Program-made: the position numbers and the translations under genes
Part shown: positions 29,051 to 35,690 of the stretch, piece after piece
Position numbering within the stretch: the stretch's first letter is position 1
Layout of the letters: each line of letters starts with the position of its first letter
DNA from: Pseudonocardiaceae bacterium YIM PH 21723
GTDB lineage: Bacteria; Actinomycetota; Actinomycetes; Mycobacteriales; Pseudonocardiaceae
Assembly (NCBI GenBank): GCA_003600225.1
Contig: QZFT01000067.1
Coordinates: 1-64,000, forward strand
DNA length: 64,000 nucleotides
Direction: 5' to 3'
Notes under the pieces: model-generated
Told to the model about the DNA's origin: nothing
The model's database searches: none
Seen by the model: only the letters and a program-made list of their open reading frames with translations

Positions 29051-29371
29051 TTACTCGCCCTGCGGCGGCAGCTGCTTGATGAAGTCGGGGTCGTGCGGCA
29101 CCTTGCCGGTCTTCGACGCGCCGCCGGGCGAACCCAGCTCGTTGAAGAAGTCCACGTTGGCCTTGGTGTAGTCGCCCCACTGGTCCGGAACGTCGTCCTC
29201 GTAGTAAATGGCCTCTACCGGACACACCGGTTCACACGCGCCGCAGTCCACGCACTCGTCGGGGTGGATGTAGAGCATGCGGTCGCCCTCGTAGATGCAG
29301 TCGACGGGGCATTCCTCGATACATGCCTTGTCCAAGACATCGACGCACGGTTCGGCGATCACATAGGTCAC
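29051..29371 (-). CDS. fdxC: 7Fe ferredoxin FdxC
   Basis: This 106-aa ferredoxin contains the 3Fe-4S/4Fe-4S pattern: C in [20 protein letters not shown] and [16 protein letters not shown]. The C-terminal extension ([20 protein letters not shown]) is typical of actinobacterial 7Fe ferredoxins. It carries electrons to enzymes such as cytochromes P450. It starts at a GTG and runs directly into dapC. About 137 bp upstream lies a strong DtxR/IdeR-type iron box, which suggests iron-dependent expression. Confidence 0.93.
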
Positions 29372-29507: not shown

Positions 29508-29526
29508 TCAGGTAAGGCTAACCTGA
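29508..29526 (-). promoter_or_regulatory. DtxR/IdeR-type iron box upstream of fdxC
   Basis: TCAGGTAAGGCTAACCTGA matches 17 of 19 positions of the IdeR consensus TWAGGTWAGSCTWACCTWA, and the two mismatches are symmetric. It lies upstream of fdxC and after the end of the next minus-strand gene, so fdxC-dapC is the only transcription unit it can serve on that strand. Confidence 0.7.
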
Positions 29527-32617: not shown

Positions 32618-34510
32618 CTACTGGACCTTGTCCCGCGACCGGGCACGGGCCCGCAGGTTGGAGTCCAGGATGAGCTTGCGCACCCGGACGGTGTTCGGGG
32701 TCACCTCGACGCACTCGTCGGAGGCACAGAACTCCAGCGCCTCCTCCAGGCTCAGGTTGCGCGGACGGGCCAGCGTCTCGGTCGCGTCGCTGGTGGAGGC
32801 GCGCATGTTGGTGAGCTTCTTCTCCCGGCAGACGTTGACGTCCATGTCCTCGGCGCGCGGGTTCTCGCCGACGACCATGCCCTGGTAGACCTCCAGGGTG
32901 GGCTCGACGAAGAAGGTGCCCCGGTCGGCCAGCTGGATCAGCGCGTACGCGGTCACCGGGCCGGAGCGGTCCGCCACCAGGGAACCCTGGTGCCGGGTGC
33001 GCAGCTCGCCGACCCACGGCTGGTATCCGGCGAAGATGTGGTTCGCGATGCCGGTACCGCGGGTCTCGGTGAGGAACTCGGTACGGAAGCCGATCAGGCC
33101 ACGGGCCGGGATCGTGTACTCGAGGCGGATGCGGCCGGTGCCGTGCCCGCTCATCTCCTTCATCTGACCCTTGCGGTTGGCGAGCAGCTGGGTGCAGGCA
33201 CCCAGGAACTCCTCCGGCACGTCGATGGTCAGGTCCTCGAACGGCTCGTGCTTCTTGCCGTCGATCGTCCGGACGACCACCTCGGGCTTGCCGACGGTCA
33301 GCTCGAAGCCCTCACGGCGCATCTGCTCGACCAGGATCGCCAGGGCCAGTTCGCCACGGCCCTGCACCTCCCAGGCGTCGGGACGCTCGGTGGGCAGCAC
33401 GCGGACGGAGACGTTACCGATCAGCTCGCGGTCCAGGCGGTCCTTCACCTGGCGAGCGGTCAGCAGCTTGCCGCCGCCCCTGCCGACCAGCGGCGAGGTG
33501 TTCACGCCGATGGTCATGGAGATGGCGGGCTCGTCCACGGTGATCCGGGGCAGCGCGACCGGGCTGTCCGCGTCGGCCAGGGTGTCGCCGATGGTGATGT
33601 CCGGGATACCGGCGATGGCCACCAGTTCACCGGCGGAGGCCTCTTCGGCCGGCACCCGGGTGAGTGCCTCGGTGACCAGCAGCTCGGTGATCTTCACGCG
33701 GGAGACGGTGCCGTCCTCGCGCATCCAGGCGACCTGCTGGCCCTTGCGCAGCCGGCCCGCGTGGATGCGGATCAGCGCGATACGGCCGAGGAAGGCGGAG
33801 GCGTCGAGGTTGGTGACCAGCGCCTGCAGCGGGGCGTCGGGGTCGGCGACCGGCGCCGGGATGTGGTTCAGCAGCACGTCGAACAGCGGGGTGAGGTCCT
33901 CGTTGTCCGGCAGGCCGCCGTCCTCGGGCTGGTTCAGGCTGGCGCGACCGGCACGCGCGGAGGCGTAGACGACCGGGATGTCCAGTGCGGAATCCTCGGC
34001 GCCGACCTCGGCGGCCAGGTCGAGCAGCAGATCGTGGGCCTCCTCGACGACCTCGGAGATCCGGGCGTCGGGGCGGTCGGTCTTGTTGACCACGAGGATG
34101 ACGGGCTTTCCGGCGGCCAGGGCCTTGCGCAGCACGAAGCGGGTCTGCGGCAGCGGGCCTTCGGACGCGTCGACCAGCAGAGCGACACCGTCGACCATGG
34201 CGAGGCCACGCTCGACCTCACCGCCGAAGTCGGCGTGACCGGGGGTGTCGATCACGTTGATCGTGACGACGCCGTCCTCGGTCTTGCGCGAGATCGCGGT
34301 GTTCTTCGCGAGAATGGTGATGCCCTTTTCCCGCTCGAGCTCGCCGGAGTCCATGACCCGGTCGACCAGCTCAGCTCGGGCCTCAAAGGCACCGGACTGG
34401 CGGAGCATGGCGTCGACGAGGGTGGTCTTTCCGTGGTCGACGTGCGCGACAATGGCCACATTGCGCAGGTCAGTGCGCTGGGAGACCTGGGCGGTGGTGG
34501 TGCCAGACAC
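32618..34510 (-). CDS. typA: Translational GTPase TypA/BipA
   Basis: The 630-aa GTPase has G1 [14 protein letters not shown]3 DTPGHADFG and G4 VNKTD, followed by EF-G-like beta-barrel and C-terminal domains ([39 protein letters not shown]). TypA binds the ribosome and matters in stress and cold. The GTG at 34510 follows CAGGAGCTCCACC, a good ribosome site; a longer in-frame start lacks one. lpqW follows it on the same strand. Confidence 0.94.
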
Positions 34511-34656
34511 GGTGGAGCTCCTGGGTTGAGCGAAGGGGTGTGCGGACGCAGGGTTCACGAAAGCGCGCCAGCGGGGGCCCATCATGGGCGGGTACGGCCA
34601 TCGTCGGCCGCAGACAGATTACCTGTTCGCATCTTGTGCTCAGCGACACATCAGGC

Positions 34657-34675
34657 AGAGGCAAGCCTAACCTAT
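34657..34675 (+). promoter_or_regulatory. Weaker DtxR/IdeR-like box before the 36-aa Cys-rich protein
   Basis: AGAGGCAAGCCTAACCTAT matches 15 of 19 positions of the iron-box consensus, and the right half is nearly complete (AGCCTAACCTAT). It ends 34 bases before the start of the small gene at 34710, so it would overlap or abut that gene's promoter. Confidence 0.45.
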
Positions 34676-34709
34676 TGTGCATTACGGGGTGCTGAACGGA
34701 GGGAACGCT

Positions 34710-34820
34710 GTGGGCAAGGTCAAGCTGAAGAAGAAGTGTTGTCGCTCGAAACCTCGCTGCAAACGCTGCCCCGTCGCCTACTTACTGGCCCAGAAGGCCA
34801 AGGAGAAGGGCAAGAAGTAA
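34710..34820 (+). CDS. 36-residue Cys-rich basic protein
   Basis: A GTG start with a good GGAGGGAA site opens a 36-residue frame: KVKLKKKCC, SKPRCKRCPVAYLL, then a Lys-rich tail. Four Cys in a CC-x5-C-x2-C arrangement inside Lys/Arg-rich sequence suggest a small zinc- or iron-binding, possibly nucleic-acid-binding protein. Similar tiny proteins occur in other actinobacteria to my memory, but I know of no assigned function. It is divergent from typA, with a candidate iron box in the shared region. Gene calling often misses frames this short. Confidence 0.72.
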   Translation: MGKVKLKKKCCRSKPRCKRCPVAYLLAQKAKEKGKK

Positions 34821-34958
34821 CTCTCCTCCGGTCAAGCTTTCAGCACAAGCGGGTCACCGCCCTTGGCCGCCCGCCCGCCGTCCCACCAGAATCGGTCGCT
34901 GCATTTCCACCGGCGAATCGCCGTATGTGGGCTACCTATTCCAGGGCGGCGGAATTTC

Positions 34959-35690
34959 ATGGATTCCCTCAATCCGAATACCAGGTTACTGGTGCTCATC
35001 GGTATCGCGGCGAACATTCTCGGAGTGGTCAGCGCCGTGGTGAGCTGGGTCAGGGCGGACACCCTGTTCCTGGCACTGTCGATCATCGCCGTGGCGCTGG
35101 TGGCAGCTGCCCTCCTGCGGCGGCGCAACCTCCGGCTGGCGGTGACCCTGCTAAGCCTCGGCTGCCTGGTCCTCGGCGGGACGATCGCGGTCCGGGTCGA
35201 TCACTGGATCACCCCATCCGCACCTGCCGTCGCTGCACCCAGCACCCCTGCCACCTCGACGAACAGCACAACCGAGGCCGCGACGGCGGTCTCCGGATCG
35301 ACCGCTCCACGGACGCTGGTCGACACCGACTTCGTGCTGCCCCGCAAGATGGCGATCGACGTGGACAGCAAGGCCTCGCAGGCGGTGGACGCACCCGACG
35401 GAGCCACCGGGAAGCTGGACTTCTTCCACGACTGGGGCCAGGTGATGTCCGACCGGGTCGACGTGGTGCGGGCACCCAATGTGTTCAGCTATTCCGGCGG
35501 TGCACTATCGAAGGCCTATTTCACCTGCAAGGGCGATCTGGAGAAATCCCCGTACTCGTTCGCCGGGGAATCCAGCCAATTCTGCTTCGTCACCTCGGAC
35601 GGGCATCCGGCATACGGAGATATTCGGCGATCCCGGGACGACCACGCCTTCGTCATTCACGTCATCGTGTGGGACGCGACGGCGAGTTGA
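34959..35690 (+). CDS. Hypothetical membrane-anchored protein, 243 aa
   Basis: The protein has two or three N-terminal hydrophobic helices (about 12-35, LLVLIGIAANILGVVSAVVSW; about 38-60; about 68-85) and a Ser/Thr/Ala-rich linker (about 95-130). An extracellular-looking domain with two Cys follows (KAYFTCKGDLEK, SSQFCFVTSDG). No family is recognised. The ATG at 34959 is chosen because the upstream extension is Arg/His-rich and unlike a membrane protein start. Its 3' end overlaps the convergent Nudix gene by 29 bp. Confidence 0.7.
   Translation: MDSLNPNTRLLVLIGIAANILGVVSAVVSWVRADTLFLALSIIAVALVAAALLRRRNLRLAVTLLSLGCLVLGGTIAVRVDHWITPSAPAVAAPSTPATSTNSTTEAATAVSGSTAPRTLVDTDFVLPRKMAIDVDSKASQAVDAPDGATGKLDFFHDWGQVMSDRVDVVRAPNVFSYSGGALSKAYFTCKGDLEKSPYSFAGESSQFCFVTSDGHPAYGDIRRSRDDHAFVIHVIVWDATAS

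Follow-up and report, generated by a model that had tools for sequence, protein, structure and literature searches.

A Putative IdeR-Controlled Microprotein Family with Four Cysteines in Actinobacteria

Results

A small gene coding for a cysteine-rich protein of 36 residues was analysed in a stretch of 64,000 nucleotides from Pseudonocardiaceae bacterium YIM PH 21723 (contig QZFT01000067.1, positions 1 to 64,000 of the forward strand), the whole of which is called the window. To judge from its pattern of substitutions, the gene is real and protein-coding, and it belongs to a family that is apparently undescribed and spread through actinobacteria. The best explanation, with a probability of roughly 0.6, is that of a microprotein repressed by IdeR, whose four cysteines would hold a metal or iron-sulfur (Fe-S) centre, and which would be made in iron starvation with a role in iron economy. 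Control by IdeR in the window organism is very probable and the binding of a metal or Fe-S cluster is probable, both as predicted from sequence, and a role in ferritin or Bfd-like iron release is a tentative proposal made by analogy. The regulation is well supported; the biochemistry we infer. The finding is larger than the preliminary description of the locus had it, as it comprises a broad family, a conserved IdeR-type control region, and a ferritin neighbour in other lineages.

The Gene and Its Coding Evidence

The gene and its signals in the window are the following.

34710..34820, + strand: gene of the 36-residue cysteine-rich microprotein, GTG start, stop included
34737, 34740, 34758, and 34767, + strand: its cysteine codons (residues 10, 11, 17, and 20)
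34698..34705, + strand: ribosome-binding site GGAGGGAA, from the sequence
34657..34675, no strand assigned: IdeR/DtxR-type iron box AGAGGCAAGCCTAACCTAT, 15/19 matches to the consensus TWAGGTWAGSCTWACCTWA
34673..34678, + strand: candidate −10 element TATTGT (TAnnnT) of a putative promoter, overlapping the 3′ end of the box

The translation, MGKVKLKKKCCRSKPRCKRCPVAYLLAQKAKEKGKK, has the motif CC-x5-C-x2-C and is strongly basic (computed isoelectric point 10.4, with 15 lysines and arginines versus one acidic residue among the 36). The window sequence thus bears out the preliminary description of a GTG frame with a good ribosome site that encodes a basic protein of this pattern.

Of 150 genomes sampled from the same taxonomic family, 102 have a BLAST match to the microprotein; with a profile built on 47 members and a threshold of E 0.01, the number rises to 114, one match being marginal. 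At larger distances, a profile of 14 rows matches in 108/298 genomes of the order, 43/296 of the class, and 7/198 of the phylum, among which a few weak matches may be other proteins. All these counts include the genome of the window itself, and the samples of order, class, and phylum overlap. Plasmids and phages gave no match at E 0.01 when searched with a mycobacterial member in place of the window protein. No description of the family was found in the literature searched, most subscription papers lying outside that search, nor did this literature contain data on its expression or metal content.

The alignment of the 47 members has only five invariant columns, the four cysteines and the proline that follows the last of them (C-C-x5-C-x2-C-P). 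Members were located in their loci by the regular expression C-x6/7-C-x2-C, so that three of the four cysteines are built into the choice; all 151 loci (231 including the named loci) pass it, and the second cysteine, which the expression does not specify, is present in each. The coding evidence for the microprotein is evolutionary, and comes from 192 distinct nucleotide cores, after exclusion of the look-alikes described below and of cores without the exact spacing. Between pairs differing at six bases or fewer, the differences at codon positions 1, 2, and 3 number 406, 272, and 1520, and the codon differences in close pairs are 1398 synonymous versus 488 nonsynonymous. Such a synonymous bias at third positions indicates a translated protein under selection. 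The four cysteines, whose loss in orthologues would have counted against the preliminary description, are kept both as invariant columns and under synonymous bias in close pairs.

These data bear directly on the idea that the frame is a chance open reading frame, a non-coding RNA, or a cysteine-responsive leader peptide of a downstream gene. The frame is very short, tandem cysteine codons occur in known cysteine leader peptides and occur here too, and a same-strand open reading frame follows in the window (34863-35690 in its longest reading). Among 12 relatives, the downstream gene (called within 500 nucleotides) lies on the same strand in four, but on the opposite one in the other eight, by simple picking of open reading frames. 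Together with the strong synonymous bias, the conserved residues, and the lack of any Rfam match in a scan of 34000-35500, this makes such an origin very improbable, and it can be regarded as largely refuted.

Some loci are worth mentioning for other reasons. One genome (locus L064, genome G464, contig C233) carries the gene twice, with about 1 kb between the copies. Five betaproteobacterial loci (L162, L167, L191, L212, and L231, from Dechloromonas, Azonexus, and others) have very short open reading frames of the type MGKKCCKSKPPCKNCPKRRKK with the same cysteine pattern. Downstream of three of these look-alikes (L162, L191, and L231), a tsaD-like frame was read by eye on the reverse strand. 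None of the five has a convincing Fur box, the best site reaching 12/19 against the Fur consensus.

An Iron Box Conserved Upstream of the Gene

Two sites in the window have at least 15/19 matches to the IdeR consensus, where 60 dinucleotide shuffles average 0.03. One of them, the 19-bp box close to TTAGGTTAGSCTAACCTAA that is expected of the IdeR/DtxR regulon, lies at 34657-34675 and ends 34 bases before the GTG of the microprotein gene, on the side of the divergent gene typA (assigned by Pfam), just as the preliminary description had placed it.

The conservation of this box was scored as the best 19-mer within 260 nucleotides upstream of the first cysteine codon, with one locus per genus in 55 genera; these were chosen from the loci at hand and not at random, and cover 28 of the 35 same-family genera with a match. 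The score reaches at least 14/19 in 43 genera and at least 15 in 38, whereas 387 equally long control windows from these loci yield no score of 14/19 or more and three of 13. The choice of locus matters a little: genera g164 and g49 score low in this choice and have other loci with at least 14. Among the named loci listed, which are 80 of at least 118 stretches, 42 of the 53 non-mycobacterial actinobacterial ones have a box of at least 14/19. The box counts exclude the five betaproteobacterial look-alikes and one chance match to the pattern (L195), and the count of named loci excludes L184, which has too little upstream sequence. The conservation of the box upstream of orthologues, as read from these sequences, is not due to chance.

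One might suppose that the box controls the neighbouring gene (typA or ferritin) and that the microprotein is a bystander, given that in most cases the two genes diverge from a common intergenic region. Yet of the 22 genera in which no typA was found next to the gene, 15 keep the box, and 18 of the 20 box-less mycobacterial loci listed do have typA there. Hence, the iron box is not a feature of typA. In leaderless-looking members, moreover, it ends a few bases before the start of the microprotein. The bystander explanation is, on this evidence, improbable. The claim of iron control made in the preliminary description gains support from the same data, as the box is conserved upstream of orthologues also where no typA was found next to them.

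The position of the box fits repression. Genes that IdeR represses generally carry a single box, which overlaps the −10 region or the start of transcription, and activated genes tend to have several (PMC10317159, in the part of the article available). In the window, a single box overlaps the TAnnnT element, to judge from sequence. In 54 of 137 unique boxed upstream regions, a TAnnnT element sits at the box end with the same offset as in the window. Another arrangement, with TAnnnT inside the box (offset 11), occurs in 60 of the 137, a figure partly implied by the consensus itself; some of these boxes lie a few bases before the start codon, in a leaderless-like manner. Scans of 34500-35000 for sigma-70 promoter and terminator consensus sequences found nothing.

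The genome of the window organism has 25 places within three mismatches of the consensus versus two for the reversed pattern, and one protein with the C domain of the DtxR family (Fe_dep_repr_C, E 1.2e-29). At ten of the twelve best other sites one adjoining gene was scanned, the second flanking gene being left unscanned at some. Eight of these genes can be read as belonging to a response that involves haem, siderophores, or redox reactions: HtaA, a DUF2470 protein, a pyridine-nucleotide reductase, DAHP synthase, a GNAT acetyltransferase, a formyltransferase, a siderophore-type binding protein, and an ornithine/lysine monooxygenase. The remaining two, an aromatic hydroxylase and a protein without match, are uninformative. 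At G000:C50:27841-27859 in the same genome, a box with one mismatch lies between a DUF2470 gene and a ferritin domain about 450 nucleotides further.

Saccharopolyspora erythraea presumably belongs to the same taxonomic family as the window organism; five other Saccharopolyspora loci are among those scored for the box. The genome-wide prediction of IdeR sites in S. erythraea comprises 37 sites and 23 clusters, according to the accessible part of that report (PMC8464063), and may already include the microprotein gene.

Neighbouring Genes

The neighbours of the gene in the window include the following.

32618..34585, − strand: typA/bipA, divergent neighbour (Pfam GTP_EFTU and BipA_C; longest start)
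29508..29526, no strand assigned: second iron box, 17/19, about 5.1 kb from the first
29051..29371, − strand: ferredoxin (fdxC-like) gene (Pfam Fer4)

Within 34470-34585, the typA frame may start at 34585 or at a later GTG (near 34513); the longest start was used. The second box lies 136 nucleotides upstream of the ferredoxin gene, in agreement with the earlier statement of an iron box some 5 kb away before fdxC.

In relatives, typA is divergent from the microprotein gene in 33 of the 55 genera. A ferritin gene is found no more than 1 kb away in 10 of the other 22 genera, versus none of these 33. Four arrangements occur: the ferritin gene is divergent in six loci (L113, L121, L122, L125, L132, and L091), precedes the microprotein gene on the same strand in one (L124), follows it on that strand in two (L136 and L140), and is convergent in one (L093). 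Examples come from Geodermatophilus, Modestobacter, Aeromicrobium, Nocardioidaceae, and one Patulibacter, the latter without the box. One of these ferritins was confirmed by Pfam (E 1.2e-36), and the others were assigned by similarity to it. Three Kribbella loci have the gene after that of a Peripla_BP_2-type protein; siderophore-binding proteins are among the members of the Peripla_BP_2 family. A member from a different class of the phylum (L092) lies near a gene for a Fur-family regulator and a ferritin-like gene.

Protein Structure and Possible Roles

The AlphaFold model of the window peptide has the cysteine loop followed by one helix, with a predicted local distance difference test score (pLDDT) of 88-89 over the cysteine region. 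A longer member gives a confident domain of 56 residues (mean pLDDT 92.5) made of the cysteine loop, a helix, a beta-hairpin, and a helix. The tail of such longer members (L071, L073-L085, L087, and L088; Thermoleophilia, e.g., L177 and L230) resembles a small winged helix.

Overall, there is no convincing Pfam, NCBIfam, or Protein Data Bank (PDB) match for the family. The window protein has no match in Pfam and only mutY in NCBIfam (E 0.32), the profile of 47 rows finds no sequence in the PDB even at E 10, and a 41-residue model finds no PDB match by Foldseek up to E 10. The 30 matches that Foldseek gives the longer member within E 10 all have E values of 5.7 or more and are not informative, several being to DtxR-type, MarR-type, and other winged-helix fragments; one match in a fold comparison, at Z 2.0, is not informative either. 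Pfam matches of the 47 members include TrmB in three (best E 0.025) and MarR in one (E 0.051), all weak.

The mechanism envisaged is as follows. When iron is plentiful, IdeR with bound iron would occupy the single box over the −10 region and block transcription. Iron starvation would relieve this repression, and the microprotein would be made. Its basic loop, K-K-K-C-C-x3-P-R-C-x2-C-P, and the helix that follows would present the four cysteines for binding of a single metal centre, for which iron or an Fe-S cluster is the likeliest candidate. Under starvation, the protein would then most likely help to release iron from ferritin (in the manner of Bfd, without being a Bfd) or tune iron-using processes. 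As for the role itself, any ranking is tentative: Bfd-like release of ferritin iron comes first, with the two roles discussed next, RNA- or ribosome-directed iron sparing and the carrying of metal or clusters, close behind.

In the first of these, the microprotein would bind RNA or the ribosome and spare iron, its basic tails touching RNA or ribosome and its cysteine knuckle serving as a structural zinc site or an iron-sensing switch, in a way reminiscent of FbpB. The excess of lysine and arginine speaks for it, as do the adjacency of typA, whose product is a ribosome-associated GTPase, in 33 of the 55 genera, and the helix, beta-hairpin, and helix after the cysteine loop of longer members with their weak TrmB and MarR matches. 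However, typA was not found beside the gene in the other 22 genera, 10 of which have ferritin instead, and no significant fold match to a nucleic-acid binder was obtained. Such a role appears rather doubtful.

In the second, the protein would be a metal buffer, an iron chaperone, or a helper of Fe-S assembly that hands on Fe(II) or a cluster in starvation, ferritin being then only a regulatory neighbour. The four invariant cysteines are consistent with this, and so is a weak likeness to Fe-S loops (the EndIII_4Fe-2S and mutY profiles), but the likeness is too weak for homology, and no Fe-S assembly gene was noticed by eye beside the gene in 24 loci, few of which were checked with profiles. A carrier of this kind is unlikely.

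Several observations weigh against an IdeR-repressed microprotein with a metal centre and a ferritin-related role. Among the named loci listed, none of the 20 mycobacterial ones has a box of at least 14/19, and such a site is missing in 11 of the 53 non-mycobacterial ones, as it is in 12 of the 55 genera. The box of the window (15/19) is weaker than the 25 sites of its own genome and below their limit. The DtxR-family protein of this genome could also be a manganese regulator (MntR rather than IdeR). Both matches to ferritin in the same genome are on other contigs and are not neighbours of the gene; hence, the ferritin role is borrowed from relatives. The known clusters with the spacing C-x6-C-x2-C-x5-C have a fourth cysteine that is missing here, where the residue is Leu26. 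Finally, IdeR regulation and metal binding are both predictions from sequence.

Data from Corynebacterium point in the same direction. The gene cg1070 of C. glutamicum, with a predicted DtxR site 18 nucleotides upstream, was unchanged in a dtxR mutant by microarray and by reverse transcription–polymerase chain reaction, and Brune and colleagues called such unresponsive predicted sites most likely false positives (PMC1382209, in the portion of the paper available). By its number, cg1070 should adjoin gapB (cg1069). In Corynebacterium pacaense (L175), two tandem members are flanked by a glyceraldehyde-3-phosphate dehydrogenase gene on one side and by those of peptidyl-tRNA hydrolase and ribosomal protein L25 on the other, and a 14/19 site lies 18 nucleotides before the first member. 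Given these two positions, cg1070 is probably the C. glutamicum homologue. A search for its exact box, with up to one mismatch allowed, found nothing in 151 genomes of the presumed Corynebacterium group, which leaves cg1070 untied to a sequence. The lack of response of cg1070 and the absence of the box in mycobacteria imply that not all members of the family are under iron control.

If the reading of an IdeR-repressed microprotein is true, a family of iron-starvation genes is present in 114 of the 150 same-family genomes and scattered through Actinomycetota, and its products are among the smallest natural proteins that bind a metal or an Fe-S cluster. One small gene with a clear promoter would then give a direct route to the study of ferritin iron retrieval and iron economy in actinobacteria.

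Comparison with Known Systems

One likeness is to the Fe-S loop of endonuclease III and MutY (PF10576), with which the family has in common the spacing C-x6-C-x2-C and, within it, KP.C..CP. The loop of these enzymes has the spacing C-x6-C-x2-C-x5-C, and the microprotein lacks their glycosylase domain. Profile matches are weak, with Pfam EndIII_4Fe-2S in one of the 47 members (E 0.0018) and NCBIfam mutY in nine (best E 0.053). Tandem cysteines serve as Fe-S ligands in complex I, and the second cysteine of the microprotein, adjoining the first, may replace the fourth cysteine of the cluster. Proteins of the YgbA type ("nitrous oxide-stimulated promoter", PRK10410 models) give similar results: NF007715 matches two of the 47 members weakly (best E 0.0025) and three sister models match three each (best E 0.015 to 0.036), all far below the curated level and none seen for the window protein. 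Neither resemblance, as judged from sequence, is sufficient to claim homology. The four-cysteine Fe-S domain of WhiB is not among the Pfam families found for the 47 members at E 1.

FbpB of Bacillus subtilis is a small, basic, Fur-controlled partner of the FsrA RNA that is made under iron limitation. It resembles the microprotein by description; its regulator is Fur, unlike the IdeR-type box found here, and we know of no four-cysteine signature in FbpB.

Bfd has a [2Fe-2S] domain (Fer2_BFD) with a cysteine spacing of its own and is encoded next to a ferritin-type gene. Like the members of the family, it is a small cysteine protein, and it acts on stored iron when iron is scarce. The family differs from it in the spacing of the cysteines (CC-x5-C-x2-C), in being strongly basic without a Pfam match, and in having a ferritin neighbour only in some lineages and none in the genome of the window; Fer2_BFD is absent from the Pfam families found for the 47 members at E 1. 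Bfd reduces and releases the iron of bacterioferritin, as stated in the accessible parts of two reports (PMC12261321, PMC12363616). It is conceivable, if doubtful, that actinobacteria have an undescribed IdeR-repressed factor of their own for ferritin iron release or iron sparing, with a new minimal four-cysteine cluster site (C-C-x5-C-x2-C) in as few as about 33 residues, as the counterpart of the Bfd of proteobacteria.
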